Origin: Segetibacter koreensis DSM 18137
GTDB taxonomy: Bacteria > Bacteroidota > Bacteroidia > Chitinophagales > Chitinophagaceae
Direction of reading: 5' to 3'
DNA: 64,000 bases
Assembly (NCBI RefSeq): GCF_000374045.1
Contig: NZ_KB893324.1
Span: forward strand, 1 to 64,000
Shown: one piece after another, positions 22,081-37,016 of the stretch
Position numbering within the stretch: position 1 is the first letter of the stretch
Layout: every line of letters starts with the position of its first letter
Position numbers and translations under genes: made by a program
The notes under the pieces: generated by a model
Told to the model about the DNA's origin: nothing
The model's input: the letters and a program-made list of their open reading frames with translations, nothing else
Databases searched by the model: none

Positions 22081-22094
22081 GTGACATATATCAC
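22081..22094. promoter_or_regulatory. Crp/Fnr-type operator, site 1
   Basis: GTGACATATATCAC is a palindrome with arms GTGA/TCAC, 40 bp before the TauE/SafE start codon. It belongs to a set of four (also 23123, 27824 and 36957), all 41-50 bp upstream of sulfur genes. Consensus GTGACAAATGTCAC. Confidence 0.65.
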
Positions 22095-22134
22095 CATATT
22101 CCTTCTGCAATCGCTTCAAATTTGCAGTATAATT

Positions 22135-22959
22135 ATGGAAATCATGGGATATATAGCAGCGTTATTTATAGGCATTTCACTTGGATTAATCGGTGGCGGC
22201 GGTTCTATTTTAACCGTACCTGTACTGGTTTATTTGTTTGGAATTAACCCGATCCTTTCCACATCATACTCATTGTTTGTAGTAGGCTCTACCAGCCTCG
22301 TAGGTGCTTTCAGCAATTACCTGAAAGGACTGGTTCGCATAAAAACAGCCTTGCTGTTTGGCATATCGTCTATCACTACAGTATTTATTACACGAAAGTT
22401 TCTAATCCCCTTTATTCCTAATCACATTGCTACTATTGGCGGTTTCAATATTACCGAGCCAATTGTTACCATGGTCCTCTTTGCCATATTAATGGTTGCG
22501 GCCTCTTTATCGATGATTAAGAGCAGCAAACAAAAGGCAGCCGCCGCAGCAAAAAACGACAATGAAAACGCAATTGGTGCCCCCGAAAAAATCAATCTCC
22601 CCAAACTACTGATGTACGGCGTTGCTATTGGTATTGCAACAGGTCTTTTAGGTGCAGGCGGAGGATTTTTGTTGATACCAACACTGGTGTTACTTGTAAA
22701 ACTTCCCATGAAAGAAGCCGTAGGAACTTCCCTGTTCATCATTGCTTTAAATTCTTTAATAGGCTTTACAGGTGATCTGGGACACTTTACCATGAACTGG
22801 TTTTTCCTTATTAAGATAACCACCATCGCTATTGCAGGCACCTTTGTAGGTGGACTAATTGCGAAGAAAATATCAGGAAATAAATTAAAAAAAGGCTTCG
22901 GTTGGTTTGTATTAATTATGGGCATATACATTCTTACTAAAGAAATATTTTTTAGCTAA
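22135..22959 (+). CDS. TauE/SafE-family sulfite/sulfur-anion exporter
   Basis: Taking the ATG at 22135 (a GTG 54 bp earlier is in frame but falls within the operator) gives 274 residues with about eight membrane helices in two inverted halves. Each half carries the family's glycine motif: LGLIGGGGSILTVPVLVYLF and TGLLGAGGGFLLIPTLVLLV. Family members move sulfite, thiosulfate, taurine-derived or other organosulfonate anions out of or across the inner membrane. With the operator upstream and the persulfide dioxygenase gene downstream, exporting sulfite formed from persulfide is the likely role. Confidence 0.85.
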   Translation: MEIMGYIAALFIGISLGLIGGGGSILTVPVLVYLFGINPILSTSYSLFVVGSTSLVGAFSNYLKGLVRIKTALLFGISSITTVFITRKFLIPFIPNHIATIGGFNITEPIVTMVLFAILMVAASLSMIKSSKQKAAAAAKNDNENAIGAPEKINLPKLLMYGVAIGIATGLLGAGGGFLLIPTLVLLVKLPMKEAVGTSLFIIALNSLIGFTGDLGHFTMNWFFLIKITTIAIAGTFVGGLIAKKISGNKLKKGFGWFVLIMGIYILTKEIFFS

Positions 22960-23122
22960 GAAGATAAAACGACACGTTTTAAAATGGAAGCTGAAGATGC
23001 CAAAAGGTTTACGGGTGAAGTGATTGCGACGCGAGGATGATACTATGAAAAACGAATGCTGGAATCATAAAAAAACACAAAATATTAATGAATACTAAAA
23101 CTATAAACAGCATGCGGGTAAC

Positions 23123-23136
23123 GTGACAAATGTCAC
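23123..23136. promoter_or_regulatory. Crp/Fnr-type operator, site 2 (consensus-like)
   Basis: GTGACAAATGTCAC has arms GTGACA/TGTCAC and is the most symmetric of the four sites. It ends 49 bp before the start codon of the persulfide dioxygenase-rhodanese gene. Confidence 0.75.
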
Positions 23137-23185
23137 CAAGTAAGCAAGTTATCTAACCGAAATTTACACTACAAAATTAAATAAA

Positions 23186-24607
23186 ATGAAAATTGAACAG
23201 ATATATACAGGTTGTTTGGCGCAAGGCGCTTACTACATTGAAAGCGATGGTGAAGCAGTGGTGATTGACCCGCTTCGTGAAGTGTATCCTTACATTGACA
23301 AGGCAGAGAAAGACAATGCAAAAATTAAGTATGTGCTCGAAACACACTTTCATGCCGACTTCGTTTCTGGTCATATTGACCTTTCTAAAAAGACCGGCGC
23401 ACCTATTGTTTATGGTCCTAATGCAGTCACTTCGTTCGAAGCGATTGTGGCAAAAGACGGCCAGGAATTTAAAGTGGGCAAAGTAACTTTTAAGGTACTG
23501 CATACCCCAGGCCATACGATGGAAAGTACCAGTTATTTGTTGAAAGATGAAACAGGAAAAGAGGTGGCATTGTTTAGTGGCGACACCTTGTTCATTGGCG
23601 ACGTTGGTCGTCCTGACCTTGCACAGAAAGCAGGGGTTATGACAAAGGAAGACCTTGCAGGCACGTTGTATGAGAGCTTAAGAAACAAGATAATGCCATT
23701 GTCTGATGACATCATTGTGTACCCTGCTCACGGAGCCGGTAGTGCATGTGGTAAGAACATGAGTAAGGAAACAACAGATACATTAGGCCACCAGAAGCAA
23801 ACCAATTATGCGTTAAGAGCCAGCATGACCAAAGAGGAATTCATTAAAGAAGTAACAACGGGTTTAGCGCAGCCACCTGCTTACTTTCCGTTGAATGTGA
23901 TGATGAATAAAGAAGGATATGAAAGCATTGATGAAGTGCTGGAACGTGGCAATCACGCCCTTTCACCCGAAGCCTTTGAAGCCGCAGCAAACGAAACCGA
24001 TGCGTTAATGCTTGACACAAGAGCACCGGAAGTATTTGCCAAAGGCTTTGTTCCTAACTCAATAAACATTGGTATCGATGGCAGCTTTGCTCCATGGGTA
24101 GGCGCTCTGATACCGGATATAAAACAAAAGCTTTTAATCATAGCCGATGAAGACAGGGAGGAAGAAGTAATTACAAGGTTAGCCCGGGTTGGATATGATT
24201 ATACCATCGGTTATTTAAAAGGTGGTTTTGAAGCATGGAAAAGTAGCGGTAAAGAAATAGATATCATAAAGTCAGTTAGTGCAAAAGACATTGGCGAGGC
24301 AATAAATAAGGGCGAGGCAAACATTATTGACGTAAGAAAAGAAAGCGAGTACCAAAGCGAACACGTGGATGGCGCAACCAATCTTCCGCTTGATAACCTC
24401 AACGATAGTATGACAGCCTTGGATAAGAACAAAACCTATTACGTGCATTGTGCCAGCGGTTATCGTTCAATGATTTACAACTCTGTTTTAAAAGCAAGAG
24501 GCTTCGATAACCTGGCCGACATCAATGGAGGATTTAAAGCCATTAAAGAAAACGGGCAGATTAAAACAACCGATTTTGTTTGTCCGACAACACTCAATAA
24601 AAAGTAA
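23186..24607 (+). CDS. Persulfide dioxygenase-rhodanese fusion (ETHE1/CstB-like)
   Basis: The 473-aa protein has a metallo-beta-lactamase domain (1-230) with the persulfide-dioxygenase metal motif THFHADFVSGH (His54, His56, Asp58), HTPGHT and SGDTLFIGDVGRPDL. Two rhodanese domains follow. The first (about 265-365) has no catalytic cysteine in its loop (IADEDREEE), while the second has Cys422 in CASGYRS. This matches the layout of CstB-type enzymes, which oxidise persulfide to sulfite and use the active rhodanese to move sulfane sulfur. It is cytoplasmic, with no signal peptide. The operator 23123-23136 lies upstream and rhodanese genes follow. Confidence 0.88.
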   Translation: MKIEQIYTGCLAQGAYYIESDGEAVVIDPLREVYPYIDKAEKDNAKIKYVLETHFHADFVSGHIDLSKKTGAPIVYGPNAVTSFEAIVAKDGQEFKVGKVTFKVLHTPGHTMESTSYLLKDETGKEVALFSGDTLFIGDVGRPDLAQKAGVMTKEDLAGTLYESLRNKIMPLSDDIIVYPAHGAGSACGKNMSKETTDTLGHQKQTNYALRASMTKEEFIKEVTTGLAQPPAYFPLNVMMNKEGYESIDEVLERGNHALSPEAFEAAANETDALMLDTRAPEVFAKGFVPNSINIGIDGSFAPWVGALIPDIKQKLLIIADEDREEEVITRLARVGYDYTIGYLKGGFEAWKSSGKEIDIIKSVSAKDIGEAINKGEANIIDVRKESEYQSEHVDGATNLPLDNLNDSMTALDKNKTYYVHCASGYRSMIYNSVLKARGFDNLADINGGFKAIKENGQIKTTDFVCPTTLNKK

Positions 24608-24632
24608 AAAAACCGGAAAGGCCTGGCAATAG

Positions 24633-24959
24633 ATGCGGATGATTCGATGGATGGTAAATATTGCCGGAGCCGCTTCCAAAAAATATAAAAAAATGAAAGA
24701 TTTAATCAATAAAGGAACAGTGGTAGATGTAAGGTCACCACAGGAGTTTGCAGGTGAACATTTTCCAAATGCAATCAATGTTCCATTGGAACAGGTACAA
24801 CAAAAAGTAAATGAATTTAAAGAAATGCCAAAGCCAATTATAGCGTATTGCAGAAGTGGTAACAGAAGCGGCATGGCTGTTTCTATGCTCAAGCAAGCCG
24901 GAATAACCGATGCTGTAAATGCCGGCGGATTAGATGACCTCTTACTAAAAGCCAAATAA
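24633..24959 (+). CDS. Small single-domain rhodanese
   Basis: In this 108-aa protein the domain TVVDVRSPQEFAGEHFPNAI, NVPLEQVQ and the active loop CRSGNRSGM carry the catalytic cysteine and substrate-binding arginines of sulfurtransferases that transfer sulfane sulfur. From the ATG at 24633 there is a short hydrophobic/basic leader; an alternative start at 24693 (MKDLINKG) would give a plain 88-aa rhodanese. It lies 25 bp after the dioxygenase gene, with the next rhodanese gene 6 bp on, so they are clearly one operon. Confidence 0.85.
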   Translation: MRMIRWMVNIAGAASKKYKKMKDLINKGTVVDVRSPQEFAGEHFPNAINVPLEQVQQKVNEFKEMPKPIIAYCRSGNRSGMAVSMLKQAGITDAVNAGGLDDLLLKAK

Positions 24960-24965
24960 AAAAAG

Positions 24966-25274
24966 ATGTTTACATTTTTAAAAAACCTCTTTAAGCCGTC
25001 AGCCGATTTTGCTAAACTGGTGAAAGAAGGTGCGGTGATAGTTGATGTACGCACCACAGGCGAATTCCAGGCTGGTCATATTGAAGGCTCTAAAAATATA
25101 CCGCTCGACACAGTTAAAAACGAAGTCGAAAAATTGAAGAAATTAAACAAGCCATTCGTTACCGTATGCCGTAGTGGCAATCGTAGCGCAATGGCAAAGT
25201 CCATCCTCTCATCAGCAGGAATAGTAGCTTATAACGGTGGTGCGTGGACTAATTTAAAAAGACAACTGACATAG
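24966..25274 (+). CDS. Small single-domain rhodanese, second copy
   Basis: This 102-aa protein has the same fold and active loop (VCRSGNRSAM) as the preceding gene but a different N-terminus (MFTFLKNLFKPSADFAKLVK), typical of Bacteroidota rhodaneses. VIVDVRTTGEFQAGHIEGSK binds substrate. Two divergent paralogues side by side suggest different sulfur donors or acceptors. The gene sits in the operon with 6-bp and 1-bp gaps on its two sides. Confidence 0.87.
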   Translation: MFTFLKNLFKPSADFAKLVKEGAVIVDVRTTGEFQAGHIEGSKNIPLDTVKNEVEKLKKLNKPFVTVCRSGNRSAMAKSILSSAGIVAYNGGAWTNLKRQLT

Positions 25275-25275
25275 T

Positions 25276-25518
25276 ATGAAAGCGATATTACAGGGATGGA
25301 ACTTTAAGCGAATACTACGATTGGTATTAGCCATCGGTATTTTAGTACAAGGCATTGTAGCAAGAGATACGGTTACGATCGTTTTAGGGGTCGTATTCGG
25401 TGGAATGGCAATGGCAAACATAGGCTGTTGCGGTACCGGTGGATGCGCAGTTAATCCACGTAACAGTAACAATAAAACACAAGACATCGAATATGAAGAA
25501 GTGGTTTCTAACAAATAA
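25276..25518 (+). CDS. DUF2892/YgaP-like small membrane protein
   Basis: This 80-aa protein contains RILRLVLAIGILVQGIVARD and TVTIVLGVVFGGMAMANIGC, two membrane helices like the DUF2892 module that in E. coli YgaP is fused to a rhodanese. After them comes CCGTGGC, a cysteine cluster at the membrane face that could carry sulfur or bind metal. The start is 1 bp after the rhodanese stop, and the end overlaps the next gene by 26 bp, so translation is probably coupled. Confidence 0.75.
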   Translation: MKAILQGWNFKRILRLVLAIGILVQGIVARDTVTIVLGVVFGGMAMANIGCCGTGGCAVNPRNSNNKTQDIEYEEVVSNK

Positions 25519-25708
25519 GCGCTACTTTATAGGAGCGACCATAGGAGCTCTTGGCGGCTTTCTTTATTGGAAATATGTGGGCTGTTTAACCGGCACTTGT
25601 GCGATTACATCTAACCCGTTCAGAAGTACAATTTACTTTGCTGTGTTGGGCGCATTAATTATTGGTTCATTTAAAAAAGAAAATAAATATGGAAACTCAA
25701 ACAACTAA
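25493..25708 (+). CDS. DUF6132-like small membrane protein
   Basis: I take the ATG at 25493, giving 71 residues: [40 protein letters not shown], then a second helix and a basic tail. The GC-x-TGTCAIT motif with two cysteines is characteristic of this small family, found next to thioredoxins and rhodaneses in Bacteroidota. It overlaps both neighbours (26 bp upstream, 20 bp downstream). The cysteines suggest redox or sulfur handling in the inner membrane; the function is not established. Confidence 0.75.
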
Positions 25709-26006
25709 TAAAAGTTTTGCGGAAGCGATTAATAGCGACAAGCCTGTACTGGTTGATTTTTTTGCCGAATGGTGCGGACCGTGTAAAATGATGGCGCCCA
25801 TACTGCAGGATTTGAAAAAGCAAATGGGCGACGACGTTACCATCCTAAAGATTGATGTTGACAAGAACCCACAAGCTGCGGCAGCATACCAGGTACAGGG
25901 CGTGCCTACACTTATCGTTTTTAAAAGTGGTCAAGTAAAATGGAGGCAGTCCGGGGTGGTTGGCGCAAAACAATTGCAGTCGGTTTTAACTAACCTGGTT
26001 GACTAA
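25689..26006 (+). CDS. trxA: Thioredoxin
   Basis: This protein has 105 residues from the ATG at 25689, with active site WCGPC, the following KMMAPIL, the cis-proline loop [13 protein letters not shown] and normal family length. It is cytoplasmic. As the last gene of the rhodanese operon it probably reduces persulfides on the rhodaneses or the products of the fusion enzyme, besides general disulfide reduction. A genome would normally carry another trxA, so this is likely the sulfur-specific copy. Confidence 0.9.
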
Positions 26007-26365
26007 ATGCTATATCTAAAAATTAGTAAAACAAACCGTATGTAGATTAAATTTTACACAATGCCAAGGTGCAAACCTCGATTAAGGAATTAAAGTTTTA
26101 GAAGCATAACATAAGCCTTAAAAGATCGACTGGGCAATACTAAGTGCAGGACTATTGTATATCTTCTTTTGATATAAAGCAACTCTAAAGCCAGTCTTTA
26201 ACTTTTGTTCTCCTTCCGTAAGAAAAAGATGTAACTGTATTATTAATGCAGCTGTACTAAGTCTTTGCCTTGCCCATCTTCTTCACAATCAACTATGTTG
26301 TTTTCAGACCGGTTGCGTTGCAACTGGCTTAATTAAACTCTACCTTTTTATTTAAATATTTCCCT
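26007..26365. other. 360-bp gap between thioredoxin and porin genes
   Basis: No gene is visible. Near 26309-26327 there is a small hairpin (CCGGTTGC/GCAACTGG with one mismatch) about 40 bp before the porin start. No copy of the Crp/Fnr-type palindrome is seen here. Confidence 0.5.
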
Positions 26366-27772
26366 ATGAGAAGAAAAATAGTCTTGGTATTCCTGGGACT
26401 TCTTCTAACCATGTTCCATGCAGTAGCGCAGAGACAAAAGCTTTTGACAGAAGTTAAAGATGACCCTTTAGATACTGCATCCTTGATAAGTGCATTCAAG
26501 AAGGCACAGGTGCACGGACACTTCCGCAATTTTGCGGCATTTACCAACAATGCACCCCCCTTCTCAGACTTTTACGCCAACGCAATAGGTGGTAAAATTG
26601 AAATAAAGACGGCTCCTTTTAAAAATTTTCAGTTAGGTGTTAGCGGTTCCTTTGTTTTTAATGTTATTTCATCTGAGTTATCCAAACCAGATAAAACAAC
26701 CAAACAACTCAGCCGGTATGAGCTGTCTTTATTTGACGTTGACGACGTTTCAAATAAAAATAACATAAAGAGGCTGGATGAGTTATACCTGAAGTATAAT
26801 ATAGGGCGATCTCATATAACTGTAGGAAAACAGAATATAAATACTCCCTTTATTAATAGCCAGGATAGCCGAATATTAGCGACAGAAGTTCAGGGAATTT
26901 GGGCAGAGTTAAACGGGGTAAAAAATGTAAAAATAAATGCTGGTTTTTTTAATGGTCTGTCGCCCCGGAGTACCACCAGGTGGTATTCCATAAGCAGGTC
27001 AATCGGCGTATATTCTTCAGGGGTAAATACGCAAGGCCAAAAAGCGCAATATGCGGGCAATTTGCAAAGTGCCGGCATTGCTTTGGCCGGCATTTCTTAC
27101 AATCCAAATCGAGCAATGAAACTGCAGGTATGGGATCAATATGTAGAGAATATCTTTAACACTGCCCTGGTACAATTAGATTATGTGCACCCTGGTGATT
27201 CCAAATTAAAAATATTTTCAGCGGTACAGGTTATAAAACAAACGGCTTTAAAAGACGGAGGCAATGAGGATGCCGTAAAAACATATTTTAATCAGGGAAG
27301 TAAATCGCTTTCGTTCGGTGCCAAGATAGGAATTAGAAATACAAAGTTTGAATCTACGATCAATTACAATCGTATAACAAAAGACGGGCGGTTTCAAATG
27401 CCAAGGGAATGGGGAATAGAACCATTATTTACTCAATTACCAAGAGAAAGAAACGAAGGCTTAGGAGATGTTCATGCAGTCGTAGCAAAAGGCAGTTATA
27501 ATTTTTTGAGCAATCGACTAATTACCACACTCGGCTTTGGTCATTACATTCTACCTGATGTAAATAATTATGCATTAAATAAGTACGGGATGCCTTCATA
27601 CAACCAGGTGTATGCGGACGTGAGGTATAAGCCTCAAGGTATGTTAAAAGGATTAGACCTACAGTTGTTATATGTTTATAAAGGCAGTAAGGGTGCAGCA
27701 CTTAACAAATCTTTCATCATTAATAAGGTAAACATGTCATCGTTCAGCCTAATATTAAATTATGGGTTTTAA
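26366..27772 (+). CDS. OprD-like outer-membrane porin
   Basis: This 468-aa protein has a signal peptide ending AVAQ and the region AQVHGHFRNFAAFTNNAPPF that opens many OprD-family channels. There is a long array of amphipathic beta-strands and a C-terminal SLILNYGF ending in Phe. Such porins let small solutes through the outer membrane. Lying between the thioredoxin operon and the YeeE/YedE pair, it could admit thiosulfate or another sulfur anion. That specificity is inferred only from position. Confidence 0.75.
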   Translation: MRRKIVLVFLGLLLTMFHAVAQRQKLLTEVKDDPLDTASLISAFKKAQVHGHFRNFAAFTNNAPPFSDFYANAIGGKIEIKTAPFKNFQLGVSGSFVFNVISSELSKPDKTTKQLSRYELSLFDVDDVSNKNNIKRLDELYLKYNIGRSHITVGKQNINTPFINSQDSRILATEVQGIWAELNGVKNVKINAGFFNGLSPRSTTRWYSISRSIGVYSSGVNTQGQKAQYAGNLQSAGIALAGISYNPNRAMKLQVWDQYVENIFNTALVQLDYVHPGDSKLKIFSAVQVIKQTALKDGGNEDAVKTYFNQGSKSLSFGAKIGIRNTKFESTINYNRITKDGRFQMPREWGIEPLFTQLPRERNEGLGDVHAVVAKGSYNFLSNRLITTLGFGHYILPDVNNYALNKYGMPSYNQVYADVRYKPQGMLKGLDLQLLYVYKGSKGAALNKSFIINKVNMSSFSLILNYGF

Positions 27773-27823
27773 ATCACTATTTAGGTATAATTAACAAAAA
27801 GAAGTAGCAGAAAAATGATTTAG

Positions 27824-27837
27824 GTAACATTTGTCAC
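27824..27837. promoter_or_regulatory. Crp/Fnr-type operator, site 3
   Basis: GTAACATTTGTCAC differs from the consensus palindrome by one base in the left arm. It ends 48 bp before the YeeE/YedE start. The DNA after it contains AAATTTGC, a possible Bacteroidota promoter element. Confidence 0.65.
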
Positions 27838-27885
27838 ACTTGGACATTTACAATAAATAGAAATTTGCATTAAATTAAAACAACT

Positions 27886-28449
27886 ATGTTAGAATTATTA
27901 AAACAGCCCTGGTCGTGGTATGTAGCCGGTGGTATAATAGGCTTGATAGTACCCGCTTTACTGATAATAGGTAACAAACACTTTGGTATTTCTGCCAACC
28001 TGCGACATGCGTGCGCCGCCTGTTTCCCGGCTGATATTAAATTCTTTAAATACGAATGGAAAAAAGAAATATGGAATTTCTTCTTTGTAGCTGGCATACT
28101 AATAGGTGCTTTAATAGCAGTCACGCTGCTGAACAATCCTGCTCCTATTCATGTAAATCCAAAGCTGGTGGCAGAACTTTCTCGTTACGGAATTAATGAT
28201 TACAGCAACATGGTTCCAAAGCAACTATTTTCTTTTGCATCGCTGTTTACGTTAAGAGGTTTTACCATGTTAGTCGGTGGTGGCTTTTTAGTTGGCTTCG
28301 GCTCACGATATGCCGGCGGTTGCACCAGCGGGCATTCAATAATGGGATTGAGCGATTTACAAGTACCCTCATTAATAGCGACTATCAGCTTTATGGTAGG
28401 AGGTTTTATTATGGCTAACCTGTTGTTGCCATTCATCCTAAGCTTATAA
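27886..28449 (+). CDS. YeeE/YedE-family thiosulfate/sulfur transporter half
   Basis: This 187-aa protein has about four to five membrane helices and the family's signature ACAACFP, then GGGFLVGFGSRYAGGCTSGH, whose Cys-bearing loop is the conserved thiosulfate-binding element in YeeE proteins. At about half the usual YeeE size it probably pairs with the next gene (16-bp gap), which carries the matching second half. Operator site 3 is upstream. Confidence 0.85.
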   Translation: MLELLKQPWSWYVAGGIIGLIVPALLIIGNKHFGISANLRHACAACFPADIKFFKYEWKKEIWNFFFVAGILIGALIAVTLLNNPAPIHVNPKLVAELSRYGINDYSNMVPKQLFSFASLFTLRGFTMLVGGGFLVGFGSRYAGGCTSGHSIMGLSDLQVPSLIATISFMVGGFIMANLLLPFILSL

Positions 28450-28464
28450 ACTACAATAAAAAAA

Positions 28465-29013
28465 ATGGAAAAAATAATAAATAAGAAATCCCCCGATTAT
28501 ACTACAACTGTCGTAAAGACAGCAGCGGGTGTTGCGAATACAGATTTTGAAGTGCGTTCTTTGGACACGATGTGTGTGAATGAATCTCAAAAGCAACACC
28601 CCTGGTGGTATAATTTAAAATACGCTGCAGTAGGCGTTATATTTGGTATTGTATTCGTAAAGGCTGAAGTGATTTCATGGTTTAGAATACAGGAAATGTT
28701 CCGGTTACAGAGTTTTCACATGTTTGGTGTAATAGGTACTGCCGTCATAGTTGGAATGATTTCAGTTGCATTAATTAAAAAGTTTAAGGTCAAAACGATT
28801 TATAGTGAACCTATCGTTTTTCAACCTAAAAAGTTCAACAAAGGGCAGATTATAGGCGGTATAATCTTTGGCTTGGGATGGGCTTTAACAGGCGCTTGCC
28901 CGGGACCATTGTTCGCTCAAATAGGTACAGGTGCGTTTGTAGTTGCCGTTATTATCCTAAGCGCTATTGCAGGCAGGACGTATGGCTACTTCCGGGAAAA
29001 GCTGCCGCACTAA
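28465..29013 (+). CDS. YeeE/YedE-family (DUF6691-like) second half
   Basis: In this 182-aa protein a hydrophilic N-terminus (about 45 residues) precedes four membrane helices. The motif FGLGWALTGACPGPLFAQIG with its conserved cysteine is the second YeeE/YedE signature. Together with the upstream gene it would form one two-subunit sulfur-anion channel in the inner membrane. In many bacteria such pairs lie beside persulfide dioxygenases and rhodaneses, as here. Confidence 0.85.
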   Translation: MEKIINKKSPDYTTTVVKTAAGVANTDFEVRSLDTMCVNESQKQHPWWYNLKYAAVGVIFGIVFVKAEVISWFRIQEMFRLQSFHMFGVIGTAVIVGMISVALIKKFKVKTIYSEPIVFQPKKFNKGQIIGGIIFGLGWALTGACPGPLFAQIGTGAFVVAVIILSAIAGRTYGYFREKLPH

Positions 29014-29104
29014 TTTCTCATTTAACTTGAGAAGTAAATTTTCTTAACCACAAATTGTATAATAGGGTTGCTGTCTTTAGATTGCAACCCTTACTTTTGC
29101 CACA

Positions 29105-29443
29105 ATGAACACAAGCACAAACAAGATTTATTCAACCGGAAAAGCCAAGCTGTCGCTTGCTTTGCTGTTTGCGCTTGCTGTTATTTTGCTGGTTGTTTCG
29201 TGTCCGTTAAAACGATTGCTGCAGAACAATGATATAGTTAGTACTGCAACAACAACGAGGACTAATCAAACGAATATTAGCAGTAGTTCTTCAACTCAGC
29301 GAGCCTCTGTTGAAAATTGTTGTGCTTTAAAGAAAAGGACTGTTTTCGCAGAAACAAACCTTGTTCAAAAGGTAAAACTTTCATCTCCCTTGTACGTTTC
29401 AAACCTTTTTACTGAAAGAGGCTTTGACATACATTTTCATTAA
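29105..29443 (+). CDS. Hypothetical small membrane-anchored protein
   Basis: This 112-aa protein has one membrane helix (about 17-33, LSLALLFALAVILLVVS), then a Ser/Thr-rich linker and CC plus basic residues (ENCCALKKR). It has no family I recognise. The ATG at 29105 is preceded by a TTTTGCC-like promoter end. It lies upstream of the RND efflux genes, with a 320-bp gap holding a repeat, so it may be an accessory envelope protein of the sulfur or efflux unit. Confidence 0.45.
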   Translation: MNTSTNKIYSTGKAKLSLALLFALAVILLVVSCPLKRLLQNNDIVSTATTTRTNQTNISSSSSTQRASVENCCALKKRTVFAETNLVQKVKLSSPLYVSNLFTERGFDIHFH

Positions 29444-29620
29444 GCAGAATTAAAGATGAGCCTGCTTATGTAGTTTCATTTAACACTTCTTCACTTCCTA
29501 TCTACCTGCAACATCTACGGTTGCTTATTTGATTTTTCTTTCTTTTTTAAGATTCTTATCTCAATGCCTTAAGCATGGCTTATAAGGATATTGGGTGTTT
29601 TTGGTTGTTGCTGAATATAG

Positions 29621-29667
29621 TTGCTACTGTACAAGAGTGCGACGCAAGTAAAGCTTCATAGTAGCAA
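29621..29667. repeat. GTACAAG-type repeat inside a palindrome, copy C
   Basis: TTGCTACT (29621) and its complement AGTAGCAA (29660) enclose GTACAAGAGTGCGACGCAAG. It is a more distant relative of the 24-bp unit seen elsewhere. It occupies the middle of the 29444-29762 gap, which otherwise shows no gene. Confidence 0.5.
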
Positions 29668-29762
29668 TATTGCCGGGCTCAAAAAAACAATCACCACACT
29701 TTTTATCTCTTACATTCTTTCGTGCTTTCCGGGCTTTCACCTAATCAACTACGGAAAGAAAA

Positions 29763-31148
29763 ATGATACATAAATTATTTATGCTGGCAATAGCATTATG
29801 CCTTTTGCAAAACCAAATACTTGCTCAAAAGAAAGTCTACTCGTTACGGGAAGTGTTGCAAAAAACCGTTGAGCAATACCCTTCGCTGTCATCAAAAAAA
29901 TATGATATTGAACAGCAGCAATTACGAAAAGAACTTGTAAAAAAGGAGCAGTTACCCGATGTGAATTTCCAGGCGCAACAAAGCTATGGTTCATACCAGG
30001 GGGTTTCAGGAGCGTTTTTCCCACTCGCCGGGATATACAATACAAGTGGCAACAACAAGGGCGTGAACGGGCAATCTTCTTCTGTTTCAAACGCATACAC
30101 TTCTGCTGTTTTGCAATGGGACTTTTTGCAGTTCGGAAGAATAAAATCGAAACTGCAGGTTGCAGACGCTGCCATCAAGGTAAGCACCTCGGCTTTGTCG
30201 CAGGAGGAATTGCGATTGCAATCCATTGCTGCGGAACAATACTTCAACGTGTTGCAAAGCACTGCCTTTTTATTGACTGCAAAAGCCGATGTACAGCGTT
30301 TAAAAGAACTGTTTGAATTATCAAAAGCACAGGCGGATGCAGGCTTGCGACCAGGCGCGGATACATTGTTAATCAAATCAAATTACTATCAAATTAGAGG
30401 TCAGGTGAATCAACAACAGGCTTTGTTTGAAACAGCTATGTTGCAGTTGTCGTCGCTGCTTGGAGAAGATACTTCCAGTTTTTCAATAGATACGTCGGTG
30501 TATAATGCCAACAACATTGCTTTTGAATTGCCACTGGATGATAGCCTTGGCAATCATCCTTACCTGCAGTATTTAAAAGCAAATATTCAGTATGCAAATG
30601 CATCGTTGGCGGCAGTTAAACGACTGCCTTATCCGTCGGTTGGTTTGTTAGCGGGCGCCGGGTTAAGAGGTTCGGGTATCAATAATGTAGGGGAAGCAAA
30701 CAACGGCTTTGCGGAACCGTGGAAAAACAATACAGCCGGTTACCTGGTAGGTGTTGGCGTTACATGGAAACTGTCTTGGTTATATCAAAACAAGACCAGG
30801 CAACGGATTGCAGAAAAAGAAATCCAGGCTGCGAACGCAAACTATGAAGATGCAAACCTGCAAGTAAAAACATCTTATGCTGCTGCAATAAGCAGGTGGA
30901 AACAACAAAGAGAAAGGGTAATGGATGCGCACACAGCATTGAACGCATCAAAACAAGCTTGCGAATTATATGTAACAAGATATGAAAGCGGGTTAATCAA
31001 CCTCATAGAATTATTGCAGTTGCAAAAGACTCTACAGGATGCTGAAAATAATTACGTAACTGCCACTGCTGCTTATTGGAATGAGTTAATCAACCAAAGC
31101 GAAAGCACAGGTAGCCTGTCGATGCTGCTATCTCAAATCAATCCTTAA
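29763..31148 (+). CDS. TolC-family outer-membrane efflux protein
   Basis: This 461-aa protein has a signal peptide ending ILAQ and two repeats of the long alpha-helical tunnel plus beta-barrel segments. Examples are SKKYDIEQQQLRKELVKKEQ and, in the second half, IQYANASLAAVKRLPYPSVG then YESGLINLIELLQLQKTLQD, the standard end-of-repeat motif. It would form the outer duct of the tripartite pump whose inner-membrane permease gene starts 17 bp downstream. Confidence 0.9.
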   Translation: MIHKLFMLAIALCLLQNQILAQKKVYSLREVLQKTVEQYPSLSSKKYDIEQQQLRKELVKKEQLPDVNFQAQQSYGSYQGVSGAFFPLAGIYNTSGNNKGVNGQSSSVSNAYTSAVLQWDFLQFGRIKSKLQVADAAIKVSTSALSQEELRLQSIAAEQYFNVLQSTAFLLTAKADVQRLKELFELSKAQADAGLRPGADTLLIKSNYYQIRGQVNQQQALFETAMLQLSSLLGEDTSSFSIDTSVYNANNIAFELPLDDSLGNHPYLQYLKANIQYANASLAAVKRLPYPSVGLLAGAGLRGSGINNVGEANNGFAEPWKNNTAGYLVGVGVTWKLSWLYQNKTRQRIAEKEIQAANANYEDANLQVKTSYAAAISRWKQQRERVMDAHTALNASKQACELYVTRYESGLINLIELLQLQKTLQDAENNYVTATAAYWNELINQSESTGSLSMLLSQINP

Positions 31149-31165
31149 TTCTAAAACTAACCTGA

Positions 31166-34100
31166 ATGAATATTATTCGTTTCGCACTTAGAAAACCAAT
31201 TGCCATAATGGTGGTAGTGATGGCCGTTGGTTACTTTTCTTTTTTAACGGTTAAAAAAATCAATGTAGATATATTCCCTGAAATTGAAAGTCCTGCCATT
31301 TACATTGCCATGCCTTATGGTGGATTAACGCCCTCATACATGGATGGTTTTATGGCGAATGAATTTCAAAAAGTATTGATTTTCGTAAGCGGCGTAAAGG
31401 ACATTGAATTTAAAAGTATCCAGGGCTTTACGCTTATTAAACTTAGCTTTTATGCAGGAACAGACATGGCGCAATCTGCGGGAGAAGTGTCAACGCAAGT
31501 ATCCCGTGCAATGGGATTTTTACCGCCGGGTTCTGTACCGCCACAGGTAGTACGTTTTGACGGAAGTTCGTTACCCATTGGTCAACTGGTTTTTGAAAGT
31601 AACAAACGTTCCATCAGTGAAATTCAAAACCTGGTAATGACGAGGATACGTCCCATGTTTGTCACCATTCTGGGCATTACTGCTCCTGCGCCTTTTGGCG
31701 GAAATATCCGTTCCATTGTTATAAAGGTCAATCCTGACTTAATGCAGTCGTTTGGTTTGTCGGAGGAAGAAGTAATGACGGCGGTTGCAAAAAATAACCT
31801 GCCATCGCCCGCAGGTAATATTCGCATGGGAGATAAAAATTACATGAGCCCTGTAAACTCTTTGGCAAAAGGACCTGAAGAATTTTTAAACCTACCGGTT
31901 AGAGTGAATGATGGCTCTACTGTTTTTATAAAAGATATTGCTACCGTGGAAGACGGCGCAGATGTGACAACCGGTTATGCCGTTGTAAATGGGAAGCGAT
32001 CAGTGTATTTACCAGTTATTAAAAAAGCGGATGCATCTACGTTAAAAGTAGTTGACAATTTAAAGGAAGCGCTTCCCATGCTGAAGGAAACACTGCCTGA
32101 TGATGTGAAAGTTGATTATGTTTTTGACCAGTCCATTTATATCGAAAGGTCTATCAAAAACCTGGTACACGAAGGGATATTAGGGGCGATATTAACCGGT
32201 TTAATGGTGTTGCTTTTCTTAGGTGATAAACGAGGTGCTTTGATTGTGGTGCTCACCATTCCTATCTCCATTTTATCGGCAGTGCTGTTGCTCTATGCGT
32301 TTGGTCAAACCATTAACATGATGACTTTAAGCGGGCTTGCTTTGGCGATTGGAATACTGGTAGATGAGGCAACCGTTACCATTGAAAACATTCACCAGCA
32401 CTTTGAAAAAGGGAAGCAAAAGTCACGAGCCATCTTAGATGCGTTGCTTGAAATTTCCATTCCTAAATTATTGATATTACTATGTATTCTTTCGGTGTTA
32501 ATTCCTTCATTTATTATGACGGGAATACCCAAGGATATGTTCCTGCCATTGTCATTGGCGGTAGGTTTTTCAATGATCGCTTCGTTCATTTTTTCGCAAA
32601 CGTTTGTCCCCGTTGTTGCAAACTGGCTGATGAAATTGAAAAAGCATACACCTCATTTCAACAGTAAGGGTCAACATAAACTTACCCGTTTTGAAAAATT
32701 TAAAAAGCGCTATTTAATTATTACACGCAAATTGCAACAACGACCTGCAGTGGTGCTGTCGGTTTATGCAGCAGTTGTTATCGTAATGGTTGCGATTGGC
32801 TTTTCTTTGATCGGTACCGATATTTTGCCGTCGAGCGGGTCAGGGGATTTACAGGTTAGAATTGATGCGCCACAAGGAACAAGGATTGAGAAAACAGAAC
32901 AATACCTGCATGGTGTTACAGATGTTATTAGAAAAGAAACCAGCGAAAAAGGGATAACCATTTCGTCGGCTTATGTAGGTACGCAGCCTTCGGGAACAGC
33001 CATCAATCCTATCTTTCTTTTTACGAGTGGTTCACACGAAGCAGTGTTGCAGATTTCGCTTAACAAAGAGGAGCTTACCACTTCTATAGAAGACCTGAAA
33101 GAGAATATCCGTAAAAAAGTAAAGCAGCAATTTCCTGAATTGCAAATATCATTCGAGCCCATTGAACTGGTTGAAAAAATCATGAGCCAGGGAACCAATA
33201 CTCCTGTTCAGATAAGAGTAGCTGCAGGGCAGTTGCCACAAGCAGAAAACTATGCTAAAAAGATTGAAGCCGGTTTACAGAAAACTGATTTTTTGCGTGA
33301 TATACGAATAGAGGAACCACTGCACTATCCTACCGTTCAAATTGATGTTGACCGTGAACGGGCATCACCGTTTGGATTGAACATGCAGGATGTAACACAG
33401 GTAATTACAATGGCAACCTCGTCAACAAGGTTTGTAAATAAAACGTTATGGCGCGATCCAAAATCTGGTCTAGTGTTCCAGGTACAAGTGCAGGTGCCTG
33501 AAGCAAGTATGCAGGCGTTGGATGATTTAAAAATGCTGCCCTTAAAAGCGGGACAGGCAAGACCCATTTTAGACGATGTAGCAAAGCTTACACTAGGCGA
33601 AGAACCGGGACAGGTGAACAGGCAGGGTGCAAACCGTTATGTTACCATTGCTGCCAACATTCACAAAAAAGATTTAGGTGCCGCATCTAAAGCAGTATCG
33701 AAGGCGATTGCAGAAGCCGGCGAAAAACCTAAAGGAATAATCGTTTCTATACAAGGTCAATTGCAATTGTTAGCAGATACATTGAATGGTTTACAAACAG
33801 GCTTGGTAATAGCCATAGTGGTTATCTTTTTAATGCTGGCTGCTTACTATCAATCGTTCGCATTATCGGCTATGATATTAGCGGTTGTTCCGGCTGTGAT
33901 AGCAGGTAGTTTAATGATGTTGCTCGCTTTTGGCAGCACCTTAAATCTTCAATCATATATGGGAATGATCATGTCGGTCGGAGTATCAGTATCGAATGCT
34001 TTTTTAATGGTGGATTATGCTGAAAAGAGCCGGTTCACCAACAGGATTGATGTAAAAGTATCCGCCATTCTCTCGGCTTCTTCAAGGCTTCGACCTATTG

Positions 34101-34369
34101 TGATGACCACCCTCGCCATGATAGCGGGAATGATACCAATGGCAGCAGGAATGGGCGAAGGAGGCGGGCAGGTAGCTCCATTAGGACAGGCAGTAATTGG
34201 GGGATTAATCATGTCAACACTTACCTCTCTTTTGGTGTTGCCGCATCTGTTTACTGTTGTTCGTAAGAAGGCAACGTTGCAAGGTGTTTCGCTTGATCCC
34301 GATGATCCATCGAGCCGTTATCATACAGAAGAATTGGTAGTTAGAGAACGGTTAGTCCATGTTGAATAA
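31166..34369 (+). CDS. RND-type efflux permease
   Basis: This 1067-aa protein has the standard RND architecture: N-terminal helix (RFALRKPIAIMVVVMAVGYF), a large periplasmic porter domain, helices 2-6 (GILVDEATVTIENIHQHFEK in helix 4), a second porter domain and helices 8-12 (GMIMSVGVSVSNAFLMVDYA). It is a proton-driven exporter in the inner membrane. The sequence is closer to multidrug/HAE-type than to metal (CusA) pumps, but the substrate is not certain. It is in an operon with TolC upstream and the adaptor downstream. Confidence 0.9.
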   Translation: MNIIRFALRKPIAIMVVVMAVGYFSFLTVKKINVDIFPEIESPAIYIAMPYGGLTPSYMDGFMANEFQKVLIFVSGVKDIEFKSIQGFTLIKLSFYAGTDMAQSAGEVSTQVSRAMGFLPPGSVPPQVVRFDGSSLPIGQLVFESNKRSISEIQNLVMTRIRPMFVTILGITAPAPFGGNIRSIVIKVNPDLMQSFGLSEEEVMTAVAKNNLPSPAGNIRMGDKNYMSPVNSLAKGPEEFLNLPVRVNDGSTVFIKDIATVEDGADVTTGYAVVNGKRSVYLPVIKKADASTLKVVDNLKEALPMLKETLPDDVKVDYVFDQSIYIERSIKNLVHEGILGAILTGLMVLLFLGDKRGALIVVLTIPISILSAVLLLYAFGQTINMMTLSGLALAIGILVDEATVTIENIHQHFEKGKQKSRAILDALLEISIPKLLILLCILSVLIPSFIMTGIPKDMFLPLSLAVGFSMIASFIFSQTFVPVVANWLMKLKKHTPHFNSKGQHKLTRFEKFKKRYLIITRKLQQRPAVVLSVYAAVVIVMVAIGFSLIGTDILPSSGSGDLQVRIDAPQGTRIEKTEQYLHGVTDVIRKETSEKGITISSAYVGTQPSGTAINPIFLFTSGSHEAVLQISLNKEELTTSIEDLKENIRKKVKQQFPELQISFEPIELVEKIMSQGTNTPVQIRVAAGQLPQAENYAKKIEAGLQKTDFLRDIRIEEPLHYPTVQIDVDRERASPFGLNMQDVTQVITMATSSTRFVNKTLWRDPKSGLVFQVQVQVPEASMQALDDLKMLPLKAGQARPILDDVAKLTLGEEPGQVNRQGANRYVTIAANIHKKDLGAASKAVSKAIAEAGEKPKGIIVSIQGQLQLLADTLNGLQTGLVIAIVVIFLMLAAYYQSFALSAMILAVVPAVIAGSLMMLLAFGSTLNLQSYMGMIMSVGVSVSNAFLMVDYAEKSRFTNRIDVKVSAILSASSRLRPIVMTTLAMIAGMIPMAAGMGEGGGQVAPLGQAVIGGLIMSTLTSLLVLPHLFTVVRKKATLQGVSLDPDDPSSRYHTEELVVRERLVHVE

Positions 34370-34379
34370 TGAATCAATA

Positions 34380-34403
34380 GTACAAGTGAGTGACACAACG
34401 ATG
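34380..34403 (+). repeat. GTACAAG-type dispersed repeat, copy D
   Basis: This 24-bp unit starts GTACAAGTGAGTGACACAAC. An exact inverted copy lies at 35620-35643, so the two bracket the adaptor gene 34481-35578. This copy starts 10 bp after the permease stop. Confidence 0.85.
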
Positions 34404-34480
34404 TCGAATAATGAAATATAGCTGGTCCAATAAAAAAAGAAAAAATAATAGTATCTCCATTAAATAAAAACATAAAAACA

Positions 34481-35578
34481 ATGCGTTCGTTTATATATTC
34501 TGCAATAGTTGTAAGCCTTGTTGTACTGCAAAGTTGCGGCGGCAAACAAGAGAAACCTGCACATGAAACTGAAGAAAAGCAAACAGCCACACCGACATTT
34601 AAGGTAGCAACAGTGGTATCTGACAAGCCTGCATTTACCGTTGTATTGCCTGGGGAACTGAAGCCCTACGAGGAGGTAAGCATCTATCCGAAGATAAAGG
34701 GTTTTATAAAAAAGATTTATGTTGACCGGGGAAGTTATGTACACAAAGGACAAGTACTTGCACAATTGGAGGCGCCTGAAATTGGCGAACAATACTCGGC
34801 AAGACAGTCAGCATCAGGCACAGCTTATCAAAAATATTTGTTCAGCAAACAATCGTATAACCGGTTAAAAGAAGCATCAAAGAAAAATGGTGCAGTGGCT
34901 ACGATAGAATTGGAAAGAGCTTATGCGCAATTGTTAGGCGACAGCGCCACCTATAAAAGCAGCAGGTCAGAAGCATCAGCATCAGGACAAATGAATAAAT
35001 ACTTAAGAATAACCGCACCATTCAGCGGCGTAATTACAGGCAGGTTTATATCGGAAGGCGCATTGGTTGGAGACAATGCAAGTCATGAGCCGTTGTTTCA
35101 ATTGGCGCAGCAAAACAGGTTGCGGCTTACCGTTGCCGTGCCCGAAAAACAGGCGCAGGCGTTATTGCCAAAAACAAAAGCAACTTTTTCAGTAGTTGAT
35201 TACCCAGGTAAAAAGTTTAATGCAACCTTATCGAGAAACAGCGGCGCTTTGGATGTAGCTTCACGTTCTGTTATTGCTGAATTCGATATAGATAACGCAG
35301 GAACCGAATTAAGAGCAGGCCAATATGCTAAAGTAAATATTCAATTGATGCGGTTGCAGCCTACCTTATGGGTGCCCACAACAAGTATAGTACAGGCGCA
35401 ATCCGGGGTATTTCTTATTAAAGTAGAAAACAATATTACCAGGCGCATTCCGGTACAAACCGGCGTAGTTAAAGATACACTGACCGAAGTATTTGGTGAC
35501 TTGCAGGCACAGGATAAAATACTTCAAAAAGGAAGCGAAGAGATCAAGGAAGGAATTCAAATTAAACCTGCAGAATAA
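34481..35578 (+). CDS. RND periplasmic adaptor (membrane-fusion lipoprotein)
   Basis: This 365-aa protein has a lipoprotein signal with lipobox LQSCGG (Cys near 20). The lipoyl/barrel-sandwich half is VSIYPKIKGFIKKIYVDRGS then YVHKGQVLAQLEAPE. It has a helical hairpin, the second lipoyl half ITAPFSGVITGRFISEGALV and a beta-barrel region (LRAGQYAKVNIQL). It links the permease to the TolC duct. It is separated from the permease gene by 111 bp containing repeat copy D, and is followed by the exact inverted copy. Confidence 0.88.
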   Translation: MRSFIYSAIVVSLVVLQSCGGKQEKPAHETEEKQTATPTFKVATVVSDKPAFTVVLPGELKPYEEVSIYPKIKGFIKKIYVDRGSYVHKGQVLAQLEAPEIGEQYSARQSASGTAYQKYLFSKQSYNRLKEASKKNGAVATIELERAYAQLLGDSATYKSSRSEASASGQMNKYLRITAPFSGVITGRFISEGALVGDNASHEPLFQLAQQNRLRLTVAVPEKQAQALLPKTKATFSVVDYPGKKFNATLSRNSGALDVASRSVIAEFDIDNAGTELRAGQYAKVNIQLMRLQPTLWVPTTSIVQAQSGVFLIKVENNITRRIPVQTGVVKDTLTEVFGDLQAQDKILQKGSEEIKEGIQIKPAE

Positions 35579-35619
35579 GTGAAGTTCTTTTTGGTAGCTA
35601 ACATTGTATCATTGCGCAA

Positions 35620-35643
35620 CATCGTTGTGTCACTCACTTGTAC
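35620..35643 (-). repeat. GTACAAG-type dispersed repeat, copy E (inverted)
   Basis: This is an exact reverse complement of the 24-bp unit at 34380-34403. It lies in the gap between the adaptor gene and the TlpA-like gene. Confidence 0.85.
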
Positions 35644-35695
35644 AGTTATCGCTATAATCAGCATTCACCATAGAACGTGTAAAAATTTAAATAAT

Positions 35696-36280
35696 ATGCT
35701 TTTACAGAAAATAAAAACATGGCTTCGAAAAAACTGGCTTACGTTTTTGATGATGTTATTGCTGGTAGTCTTGATTGTTAGTCCATCGGCTAAGTCGTGG
35801 GTTATGCAGCAACTGCTGTCAACCGGAGTGTTTAATGCCGACATAAAGAAGGAAGGCATGGCCAATGCATCTTCCAATACTACATTCAGTTTTACAAATG
35901 CTCAAGGCGTCGAAGCTTCTACAGCTTCTTTAAAAGGCAAGGTTGTGTTCGTCAACTTTTGGGCATCGTGGTGCCCTCCATGTCGTGCAGAAATGCCGTC
36001 ATTAAACGAGTTGTACAAGAAGTTAAAAGATGATAACCGCTTCTTTTTCCTGTTCATGAACGAAGATGACGATAAGATGAAAGCCAAACAATACCTCGAT
36101 AAAAACCGCTTTAATATTCCTTTATTTAGCCGTTCAGGATATGTTCCCACTGAAATTTTTAGCGGCACGCTACCCACCACCATTGTACTTAATAAAGAAG
36201 GAAAAATAGTATTACAACACACCGGAATGGCAGGTTATAATACCGATGAATTTATAAGACAGTTGAAAGAACTGTTATAG
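35696..36280 (+). CDS. TlpA/ResA-like membrane-anchored thioredoxin
   Basis: From the ATG at 35696 (preferred because earlier in-frame starts lie in or before repeat copy E) there are 194 residues. An N-terminal anchor helix (WLTFLMMLLLVVLIVSPSAK) precedes a periplasmic thioredoxin fold with VNFWASWCPPCRAEMPSL and the cis-proline loop GTLPTTIVLNKEG. Such proteins reduce disulfides in the periplasm, for example during cytochrome c maturation. It lies 54 bp upstream of a second TlpA-like gene. Confidence 0.85.
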   Translation: MLLQKIKTWLRKNWLTFLMMLLLVVLIVSPSAKSWVMQQLLSTGVFNADIKKEGMANASSNTTFSFTNAQGVEASTASLKGKVVFVNFWASWCPPCRAEMPSLNELYKKLKDDNRFFFLFMNEDDDKMKAKQYLDKNRFNIPLFSRSGYVPTEIFSGTLPTTIVLNKEGKIVLQHTGMAGYNTDEFIRQLKELL

Positions 36281-36334
36281 ACAAAACAAAAGATTTGATT
36301 AATAAAACAAACAGAAAACATCAAAACAAATAAT

Positions 36335-36898
36335 ATGAAAATTAAATTAATGGCAATCGTTGGATTAACAATGGCAACATTTGCAGCATGTTCTAACACT
36401 GCAAAAGAAAAAGATACCTCAAAACAAAATTCAGAACAAGCAACAGCAGCAGAAGTTGCACAAACAGCTATTAACCAAGCAGAGACAAAGGCTGTAACTC
36501 CAACGTTGCCAACATTTAAAGTAATGGCAATGGATGGCAGCACTGTGAACCTGGCTGACCTAAAAGGCAAAAAAGTGTTTGTAAATCTTTGGGCGACCTG
36601 GTGTCCGCCTTGCAGGGCAGAGATCCCATCTATCGAAGCGCTAAGCAGCAAACTGGATAAACAAAAAGTTGCTTTTGTTATGTTGTCGTTGGACGAAAAT
36701 ATTAACCTTCCAAAGCAATTTGCCCTAAAAAATAAACTTCAATTGCCAGTATTTTATCCTGCTGAAGGCCTTCCTGGTATTTTTAAAACAGATGGCATTC
36801 CGGCCACATTCATCTTTAATGAAAAAGGTGAATTGATTAAAGCGAACATCGGTGCAGAGGATTATAATACAAATGAGTATGTTCAATTGCTGAAGTAG
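36335..36898 (+). CDS. TlpA-like thioredoxin lipoprotein
   Basis: This 187-aa protein has a signal ending TFAACS (lipobox, Cys near 19), an Asn/Gln/Thr-rich linker, then a thioredoxin domain with VNLWATWCPPCRAEIPSIEA and DGIPATFIFNEKG. It is a paralogue of the preceding protein but lipid-anchored, so the two probably act in one periplasmic redox relay. The SQR gene with its own operator follows. Confidence 0.87.
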   Translation: MKIKLMAIVGLTMATFAACSNTAKEKDTSKQNSEQATAAEVAQTAINQAETKAVTPTLPTFKVMAMDGSTVNLADLKGKKVFVNLWATWCPPCRAEIPSIEALSSKLDKQKVAFVMLSLDENINLPKQFALKNKLQLPVFYPAEGLPGIFKTDGIPATFIFNEKGELIKANIGAEDYNTNEYVQLLK

Positions 36899-36956
36899 TA
36901 ATAAATATGGTCTTTACAGAAAAATCTAAATTTTTTTATTATAAAAGATCGGATGT

Positions 36957-36970
36957 GTGATTAATGTCAC
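36957..36970. promoter_or_regulatory. Crp/Fnr-type operator, site 4
   Basis: GTGATTAATGTCAC has arms GTGA/TCAC and ends 46 bp before the SQR start. It is followed by TAGTTTTG, a match to the Bacteroidota TAnnTTTG promoter element, at about 36993-37000. The site would therefore lie close to or over the -33 region. Confidence 0.7.
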
Positions 36971-37016
36971 CTTTTTTAGTCTTGGAATAAAATAGTTTTG
37001 ACTAAAATTAAATACG

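Follow-up and report, generated by a model that had tools for sequence, protein, structure and literature searches.

Bacterial persulfide sensing has been described for regulators of the CsoR and ArsR families, for sigma-54 regulators and for several redox regulators (PMC7315123 and PMC11211675, in the portions accessible). CstR and YrkD (CsoR family), SqrR/BigR (ArsR family), FisR (sigma-54), OxyR, PerR and MarR are sulfane-sulfur regulators, and they control the same kind of sulfide and persulfide oxidation genes as those discussed here. According to the accessible parts of PMC9918477, PMC12423496 and PMC7315123, CstR, SqrR and BigR use two cysteines, as the regulator proposed below may also do; unlike it, all the regulators just listed have other folds, CstR, SqrR and BigR being repressors and FisR a sigma-54 activator. 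Our subject is a set of four 14-nt palindromes in the first 64,000 nucleotides (the window) of contig NZ_KB893324.1 of Segetibacter koreensis DSM 18137 (Bacteroidota, Chitinophagaceae; assembly GCF_000374045.1). The whole genome (G000) comprises 6.10 Mb in 73 contigs, and the window is the start of the contig that we call C11. The palindromes belong, as is strongly supported, to a Crp/Fnr-family regulon for sulfur genes, with nine sites and with a candidate regulator encoded on another contig, C57.

In its fold, in an R-E-x3-R recognition helix and in an operator of the type TGTGA-N6-TCACA, this system resembles E. coli CRP/CAP (PMC11253593, accessible part). It differs from CRP in having a C-x5-C motif in the pocket, in the loss of two cAMP-pocket residues, in its Bacteroidota promoter and in its sulfur regulon. 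FNR, which senses O2 via a [4Fe-4S] cluster on four cysteines and has the operator TTGAT-N4-ATCAA, is alike in superfamily and in class II geometry, but the present protein has two cysteines and TGTGA half-sites instead. The regulator is a member of the Crp/Fnr superfamily and is neither CRP nor FNR in the strict sense. We found no paper that joins fnr or crp to persulfide dioxygenase, in a search to which the spelling "Crp/Fnr" was probably invisible and from which subscription journals were mostly missing; nor did a search that was not thorough, of sources open only in part, turn up a persulfide regulator described for this class. Apparently, a persulfide branch of Crp/Fnr has so far gone undescribed, and we make no firm claim that it is absent from print.

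All four palindromes lie on the forward strand. The operator GTGACATATATCAC (22081..22094) stands upstream of a TauE/SafE family transporter gene (22138..22959, +; PF01925, E 3e-38), and GTGACAAATGTCAC (23123..23136) upstream of a gene that fuses an MBL-fold, persulfide dioxygenase-like domain with two rhodanese domains (23186..24607, +; PF00753 and two PF00581 stretches). The third, GTAACATTTGTCAC (27824..27837), precedes a YeeE/YedE (Sulf_transp) gene (27886..28449, +; PF04143), and the fourth, GTGATTAATGTCAC (36957..36970), precedes a gene for a type III-like sulfide:quinone oxidoreductase (SQR; 37017..38213, +; NF049943, E 3e-72, 243.7 bits, below the cut-off of 525). From the end of the site to the likely ATG there are 43, 49, 48 and 46 nt, respectively. 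Exactly 22 nt past each operator, on the same strand, comes a box near the Bacteroidota -7 consensus TAnnTTTG: CAAATTTG (22117..22124), whose spacing recurs in relatives, GAAATTTA (23159..23166), GAAATTTG (27860..27867) and TAGTTTTG (36993..37000). The first T of the consensus is absent from three of the four boxes.

No other place in the window is within one mismatch of the consensus GTGACNNNNGTCAC (one of the four is exact, three have one mismatch). A scoring matrix of site plus box, built from 208 sites of other genomes and with no contribution from this one, gives the four operators as its top four matches in the window: from the first to the last they reach 29.9, 26.1, 25.9 and 28.4 bits, against 10.4 bits for the best unrelated place. 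In sixty first-order Markov copies of the window taken together, one place scored at least 20 bits. In the stretch from 28191 to 36956, which holds TolC, RND and TlpA genes, the same scan gives no place above its 6-bit floor. An earlier note on this DNA, made from the letters, had placed the four palindromes before the sulfur genes and seen no copy before the RND or TlpA genes; both statements hold.

Over the whole genome, the site with a box at 22 nt occurs exactly at five places, all five upstream of sulfur genes. With up to one mismatch there are 11 distinct places, nine of them upstream of sulfur genes, and at two mismatches most matches are noise (53 places vs 41 in the control). The nine sites, four of which are those of the window, would constitute the regulon. 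The other five are C57:108894 (second TauE copy), C57:109783 (second dioxygenase-rhodanese copy), C13:252851 (second YeeE copy), C13:255925 (a SoxA/TsdA-type cytochrome, followed by a SoxB-like gene) and C13:267025 (a third dioxygenase-rhodanese). All nine have the 22-nt spacing, and the genes they face are all of the sulfide, persulfide or thiosulfate type. No sulfur gene follows the two remaining places, C1:2089 and C4:33015, of which the second is within an open reading frame (ORF). The 14-mer itself has 17 perfect copies: eight upstream of sulfur genes, seven within other ORFs and two elsewhere between genes. For several of the eight, an apparent position in an ORF is due simply to the ORF caller, which takes the site's own GTG as a start.

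Genome searches with PF13545 and PF00027 reach a Crp/Fnr protein of 210 amino acids at C57:108252-108884 (L051:10252-10884). Its gene adjoins the second TauE-dioxygenase operon, with 9 nt between its end and the operator of that TauE copy. The protein has an N-terminal cNMP-binding fold (PF00027, 44.6 bits, cut-off 27.5) and a C-terminal Crp-type helix-turn-helix (HTH; PF13545 and PF00325, both above cut-off). Its AlphaFold model has a mean pLDDT of 88.9, with residues 81-90 at low confidence (66), and Foldseek matches this model to CRP structures at E values of about 1e-15, among them CAP, T. thermophilus CAP and 3DV8, which makes it a CRP fold. The recognition helix, SSREVISR, resembles R180-E181-x3-R185 of CRP. 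Three things tie the protein to the sites: its linkage to them, their near-absence from genomes without it, and the agreement between helix and operator. The earlier note had supposed a reader of the Crp/Fnr family; a specific candidate is now at hand, and the regulon is larger than the four sites from which that idea started. No regulator of the C57 type is encoded within the window, so control there would be exerted in trans.

The genome has eight PF00027 matches, seven of them above cut-off, and another Crp/Fnr protein might therefore read the sites, for example the one at window positions 1-150 (minus strand), an N-terminal end cut by the end of the contig. We hold this to be very improbable. 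An R-E-x3-R helix is absent from the other seven matches as far as their reading frames were read, the one on C28 having been read only piecewise and without its HTH; two carry TYETVFR and ATESLIR, and one has no HTH in its frame. The start of the 1-150 protein recurs on C28 (L393), where it continues without the GQAC segment of the C57 protein; the window contig and C28 may overlap or carry copies. The truncated protein, an N-terminal fragment of another type, was dropped as a candidate; the earlier note had itself said that nothing ties it to the sites. Moreover, the sites are nearly absent where a C57-type protein is absent, and their type tracks the C57-type helix, as set out below. Control of the CstR type, which the earlier note had contrasted with its own proposal, was dropped too: PF02583 (CsoR/CstR family) was not found in this genome by a search that was positive in 6 of 14 control genomes.

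The C57 regulator has relatives in 110 of the 147 genomes sampled from the family (E 1e-20) and in 176 of the 295 from the class (1e-15). Twenty of the 37 family genomes without one were examined, 15 of these with a completeness of 90% or more and a contamination of 5% or less. They contain three exact site-plus-box places, vs two in the control. Where the regulator is present, 18 of 20 genomes have a close orthologue of the dioxygenase-rhodanese (at least 69% identity); of the 20 where it is absent, one does, and 17 have only a version of 51-59% identity. Among the 20 is G098, of the same genus, with neither the regulator nor the close dioxygenase orthologue, and the module would thus have been gained or lost over short distances.

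For the comparison of sites we used 200 loci, a first set of 120 and a second of 80, the second from Niastella, Chitinophaga, Flavobacterium, Pedobacter, Dyadobacter, Pontibacter and others. Loci L247-L326, from the second set, partly repeat genomes of the first (for example L249/G080, L261/G083, L325/G281), so that not all locus counts are independent. With four stretches of the S. koreensis genome this makes 204 sequences, of which 154 contain intergenic, gene-facing palindromes GTRAY-N4-RTYAC, 307 in all (11 from S. koreensis), the box not being demanded. The genes faced are TauE (94), dioxygenase-rhodanese (62), single rhodanese (26), YeeE (18), the regulator (17) and SQR (14); the rest are a few others of the reference set and 59 unassigned genes. 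The earlier note had let its proposal depend on conservation of the motif upstream of orthologous operons, and across the class the motif is conserved there.

Class II activators such as CRP and FNR bind with their centre at -41.5. In the 45 bases downstream of the 307 sites, only +24 (A, 82%), +27 to +29 (T, 84-90%) and +30 (G, 71%) exceed 60%. A full nAnnTTTG follows at a spacing of 22 in 183 sites, of 23 in 14 and of 21 in three, and at each remaining spacing from 10 to 35 in zero to two. In Flavobacterium johnsoniae, according to the accessible part of PMC6847099, the -7 box extends from -12 to -5, 4-5 nt from the start. With the same placement here, the 22-nt gap would put the operators at -41.5; judged from the -7 box, the predicted position is that of a class II activator. 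On this basis transcription is predicted to start at about 22129, 23171, 27872 and 37005, and the leaders to be 9-15 nt long.

This geometry makes activation likely, rather than repression. The opposite case, in which the protein would block the promoter as a repressor until sulfur releases it, has its models in BigR, SqrR and CstR, which are called repressors in the available portions of PMC7315123, PMC12423496 and PMC9918477. A repressor, though, should tolerate other positions, and in 183 sites the box keeps exactly the same spacing, with 17 more that deviate from it by one base. Boxes without the first T of TAnnTTTG, such as three of the four in the window, are common in activator-dependent promoters. 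Repression seems to us improbable on these grounds.

The first 60 loci contain two types of recognition helix, SREV(I/V)SR (Glu) and SRVV(I/V)SR (Val). E. coli CRP contacts its operator by R180 to G2, E181 to C4 and R185 to G4 (PMC11253593, accessible part). The residue that differs between the Glu and Val helices is the equivalent of CRP Glu181. Substitution mutants of CAP Glu181, studied by Ebright and colleagues, reportedly have an altered preference at the base pair contacted, G4:C4, and from that work the Val proteins would be expected to use GTAA. Here the change is a natural variation over a clade of regulators, unlike the CAP mutants, and the operators match. In the first set, where 58 of the 60 loci have a readable helix, GTGAY was found in 23 and GTAAY in four of 39 Glu loci; among 19 Val loci the numbers are one and 12, and the one Val locus with a GTGA site, L177, also holds a Glu-type regulator. 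In a hold-out set (59 of 60 loci readable), boxed GTGA occurs in 26 of 48 Glu and none of 11 Val loci, boxed GTAA in one of 48 and five of 11.

The combined count takes in 194 of the 200 loci (164 Glu, 30 Val; six with two or no readable helix were dropped) and oriented sites with an nAnnTT box at 22 nt. There are 142 GTGA/TCAC, 63 mixed and one GTAA/TTAC sites in the Glu loci, vs none, one and 13 in the Val loci. Whole genomes, each assigned to a helix class by one fetched regulator, agree: exact site plus box of the GTGA type occurs 49 times in 25 Glu genomes and 12 times in 25 Val genomes (backward controls 1 and 0), that of the GTAA type five and 34 times (controls 7 and 5). The tree implies about four changes of the helix residue (six with the helix columns removed, three when forced). 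One switch to Glu lies within an otherwise Val clade, and its members L179, L224, L240 and L241 have GTGA sites. As the CRP Glu181 contact predicts, Glu helices (SREV) would thus pair with GTGA and Val helices (SRVV) with GTAA, with two exceptions. Within the Glu loci, a site lies upstream of 84 of 93 TauE genes, 68 of 107 dioxygenase-rhodanese genes, seven of 12 SQR genes and 28 of 1196 unassigned genes, according to a matrix whose training sites came in part from these very loci but not from the S. koreensis genome. As a separate observation, the genome G028, whose regulator is of the Glu type, has its sole GTAA-type site at C7:190555, about 1.2 kb from a distant second regulator homologue (C7:191834).

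The C57 protein has Cys77 and Cys83 in a segment GQACxLSxxC (C-x5-C). By text pattern, all 188 relatives with at least 40% identity have Cys77 and 183 of them have Cys83; these are the only two conserved cysteines of the regulator family. We take this segment to correspond to the GELG segment, or phosphate-binding cassette, of CRP, whose cAMP pocket has the residues E72, R82 and S83. By eye, with CRP so placed, E72 and R82 are not kept and the serine is. The closest solved relative by sequence is PDB 3DV8 (E 3e-34 by profile; 3e-16), a putative Crp/Fnr regulator, EUBREC_1222, of Eubacterium rectale. It too has C-x5-C (CLLSASC) and an REVITR helix; it comes from another phylum, with about 25% identity, and the comparison is one of sequence and fold.

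Proteins with the same features are also found outside Bacteroidota. A tblastn search against plasmids gave 60 records with a match, of which 16 were opened: two from Bacteroidota, 13 from Pseudomonadota (Paracoccus, Ruegeria, Thioclava, Pseudosulfitobacter, Azospirillum and Thiothrix; several are close relatives and not independent) and one from Paenibacillus, whose protein has no second cysteine. All 13 proteins from Pseudomonadota have C-x5-C (GESCVLTTAC and the like; DSCILTASC in L396) and an AREV(I/V)SR helix. Nine of the 13 genes precede an MBL-fold gene, and six of these nine (L395, L398, L403, L405, L406, L408) also precede YeeE or DUF6691 genes. Only a DUF2892 gene is seen with the remaining four, which are those of Thiothrix, two Azospirillum and one Thioclava whose locus is truncated at the end of the record. 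The 13 loci are L395-L399 and L402-L409. Twelve of them have, no more than 330 nt past the regulator gene, a palindrome GTRAY-N3-RTYAC, whose spacer has one base less than that of Bacteroidota; the rest of the 13 loci (138 kb) contains three. Gaps of 0-2 and 4-8 gave one match in total after the regulator gene (a 4-base gap, L408). It may be, and we would put the chances at about even, that C-x5-C Crp proteins are cross-phylum activators switched on by sulfane sulfur, in Bacteroidota, Pseudomonadota and perhaps Bacillota, their pocket having been turned into a two-cysteine persulfide sensor. Their regulons would have moved between GTGA and GTAA as the Glu181 equivalent toggled between Glu and Val, and the half-site spacer would be N4 in Bacteroidota and N3 in the Alphaproteobacteria and Thiothrix opened.

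What might the signal be? The targets are sulfide, persulfide and thiosulfate genes, and a reaction of sulfane sulfur at the cysteines is therefore the most economical suggestion; sulfane sulfur (persulfide or polysulfide) is, on balance, the probable signal. The main rival on this point keeps the same regulator and sites but has oxygen or the general redox state as signal, through a disulfide or through a metal or Fe-S centre on the cysteines, with the sulfur genes as mere output. A disulfide can arise from two cysteines, some Crp/Fnr relatives are oxygen sensors, and persulfide dioxygenase uses oxygen as a substrate. FNR, on the other hand, has four cysteines rather than two, and all nine S. 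koreensis sites face sulfide, persulfide or thiosulfate genes, with genes of the same kind beside nine of the 13 proteobacterial relatives. We consider an oxygen or redox signal rather unlikely.

A number of observations weigh against the reading offered here, in whole or in part. In the window, GTGACNNNNGTCAC at two mismatches is at shuffle level (nine places seen, 11.5 expected), and in the genome the bare 14-mer with up to one mismatch is at background (270 places vs 369 in the backward control). Such numbers are what one would see if the palindromes were due to chance or a by-product of AT-rich promoters, and the palindrome alone was dropped as a genome-wide signal. The earlier note had named occurrence at random genome positions as evidence against itself; this is so for the bare 14-mer at one mismatch, but not for the site with its box. 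The comparative data nevertheless refute an origin by chance, to which we give practically no credence: the matrix from other genomes ranks exactly the four operators first, with hardly a match in the Markov copies, the spacing is conserved, and helix and operator covary. Other adverse points concern particular parts. A full nAnnTTTG is missing from roughly one in three of the 307 sites, whichever of the tested spacings is considered, and 42 of 164 Glu and 19 of 30 Val loci have no qualifying boxed site. Two Glu loci, L222 and L265, carry a GTAA/TTAC site, and the 12 GTGA sites in Val genomes stand against a control of none; some of these are perhaps read by a second regulator. The tree offers three independent pairs on well-supported branches, two or three as expected and none opposed, which is too few for a sign test. 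Some Val-clade proteins retain only the first cysteine (L186). Finally, the matrix scan finds no site in front of the C57 gene, unlike the 17 regulator genes with sites in relatives, and autoregulation of this gene was dropped.

All this being weighed, one sulfide/persulfide regulon, the C57 protein as its regulator and the promoter position, taken jointly, seem to us very probable as far as sequence comparison can tell. The four palindromes would be operators of a nine-site regulon, bound in trans by a dimeric C57 protein whose S-R-E-V-I-S-R reads the TGTGA half-site as R180, E181 and R185 do in E. coli CRP; the palindromic form of the sites agrees with a dimer. Bound at -41.5, it would act as a class II activator and recruit RNA polymerase to the -7 box that follows after 22 nt. 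Cys77 and Cys83, in place of the cAMP-binding residues, would most likely react with sulfane sulfur, and this would switch on DNA binding or activation. If true, a Crp-fold activator is a further solution to bacterial persulfide sensing, and it would explain the control of sulfide detoxification over much of this class. The natural switch between Glu and Val, with matching operators, would allow the co-evolution of regulator and operator to be traced at a textbook protein-DNA contact, and the fixed -41.5 geometry would amount to a sequence rule for class II activation on the divergent Bacteroidota promoter.

Some further genes of the window deserve mention, all on the forward strand. Two single rhodanese genes (24633-24959 and 24966-25274) and a small DUF2892-like gene (25276-25518), named by sequence reading, probably form one operon with the fusion gene, as they run in the same direction. 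A DUF6691/Sulf_transp partner gene (28465..29013; PF20398, PF04143) comes after YeeE/YedE. It is followed at 29763..36898 by genes for a TolC-like protein, an RND pump, an RND adaptor (TIGR01730) and two TlpA-like thioredoxins, the second with PF08534; the TolC, RND and first TlpA genes were named by reading. Having no operator of their own, these genes are either transcribed by read-through from 27824 or outside the regulon. Similar pump genes also adjoin the regulator cluster in L176 and L151, and the position of the pump genes between YeeE and SQR hints at a sulfur-linked efflux system.

On C57, the second sulfur operon is followed by a gene for a ComA-type phosphosulfolactate synthase (L051:14068-14910; PF02679, E 2e-84), an odd companion for sulfide detoxification, and then by what reads as a ClC-type channel. 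The third dioxygenase-rhodanese gene on C13 has, besides its perfect operator, an imperfect second one, GTGACTAAAGTTAC, about 100 bp upstream (L053:6925 and 7026). On the same contig a weaker site of 17.5 bits (L052:6526, minus strand; C13:246525) lies just upstream of a 581-aa gene outside the obvious sulfur set. Similar palindromes, GTGATTGATATCAC, TTGATCAATGTCAC and GTGATCAATGTCAC, are found in three intergenic stretches of about 100 bp that are alike: C1:2089-2132 (L054), C1:526554 (L068:6555) and C44:613 (L062). Two of the three precede genes whose products start with MKNIQ, and the stretches look like a separate repeated promoter unit outside the sulfur regulon.

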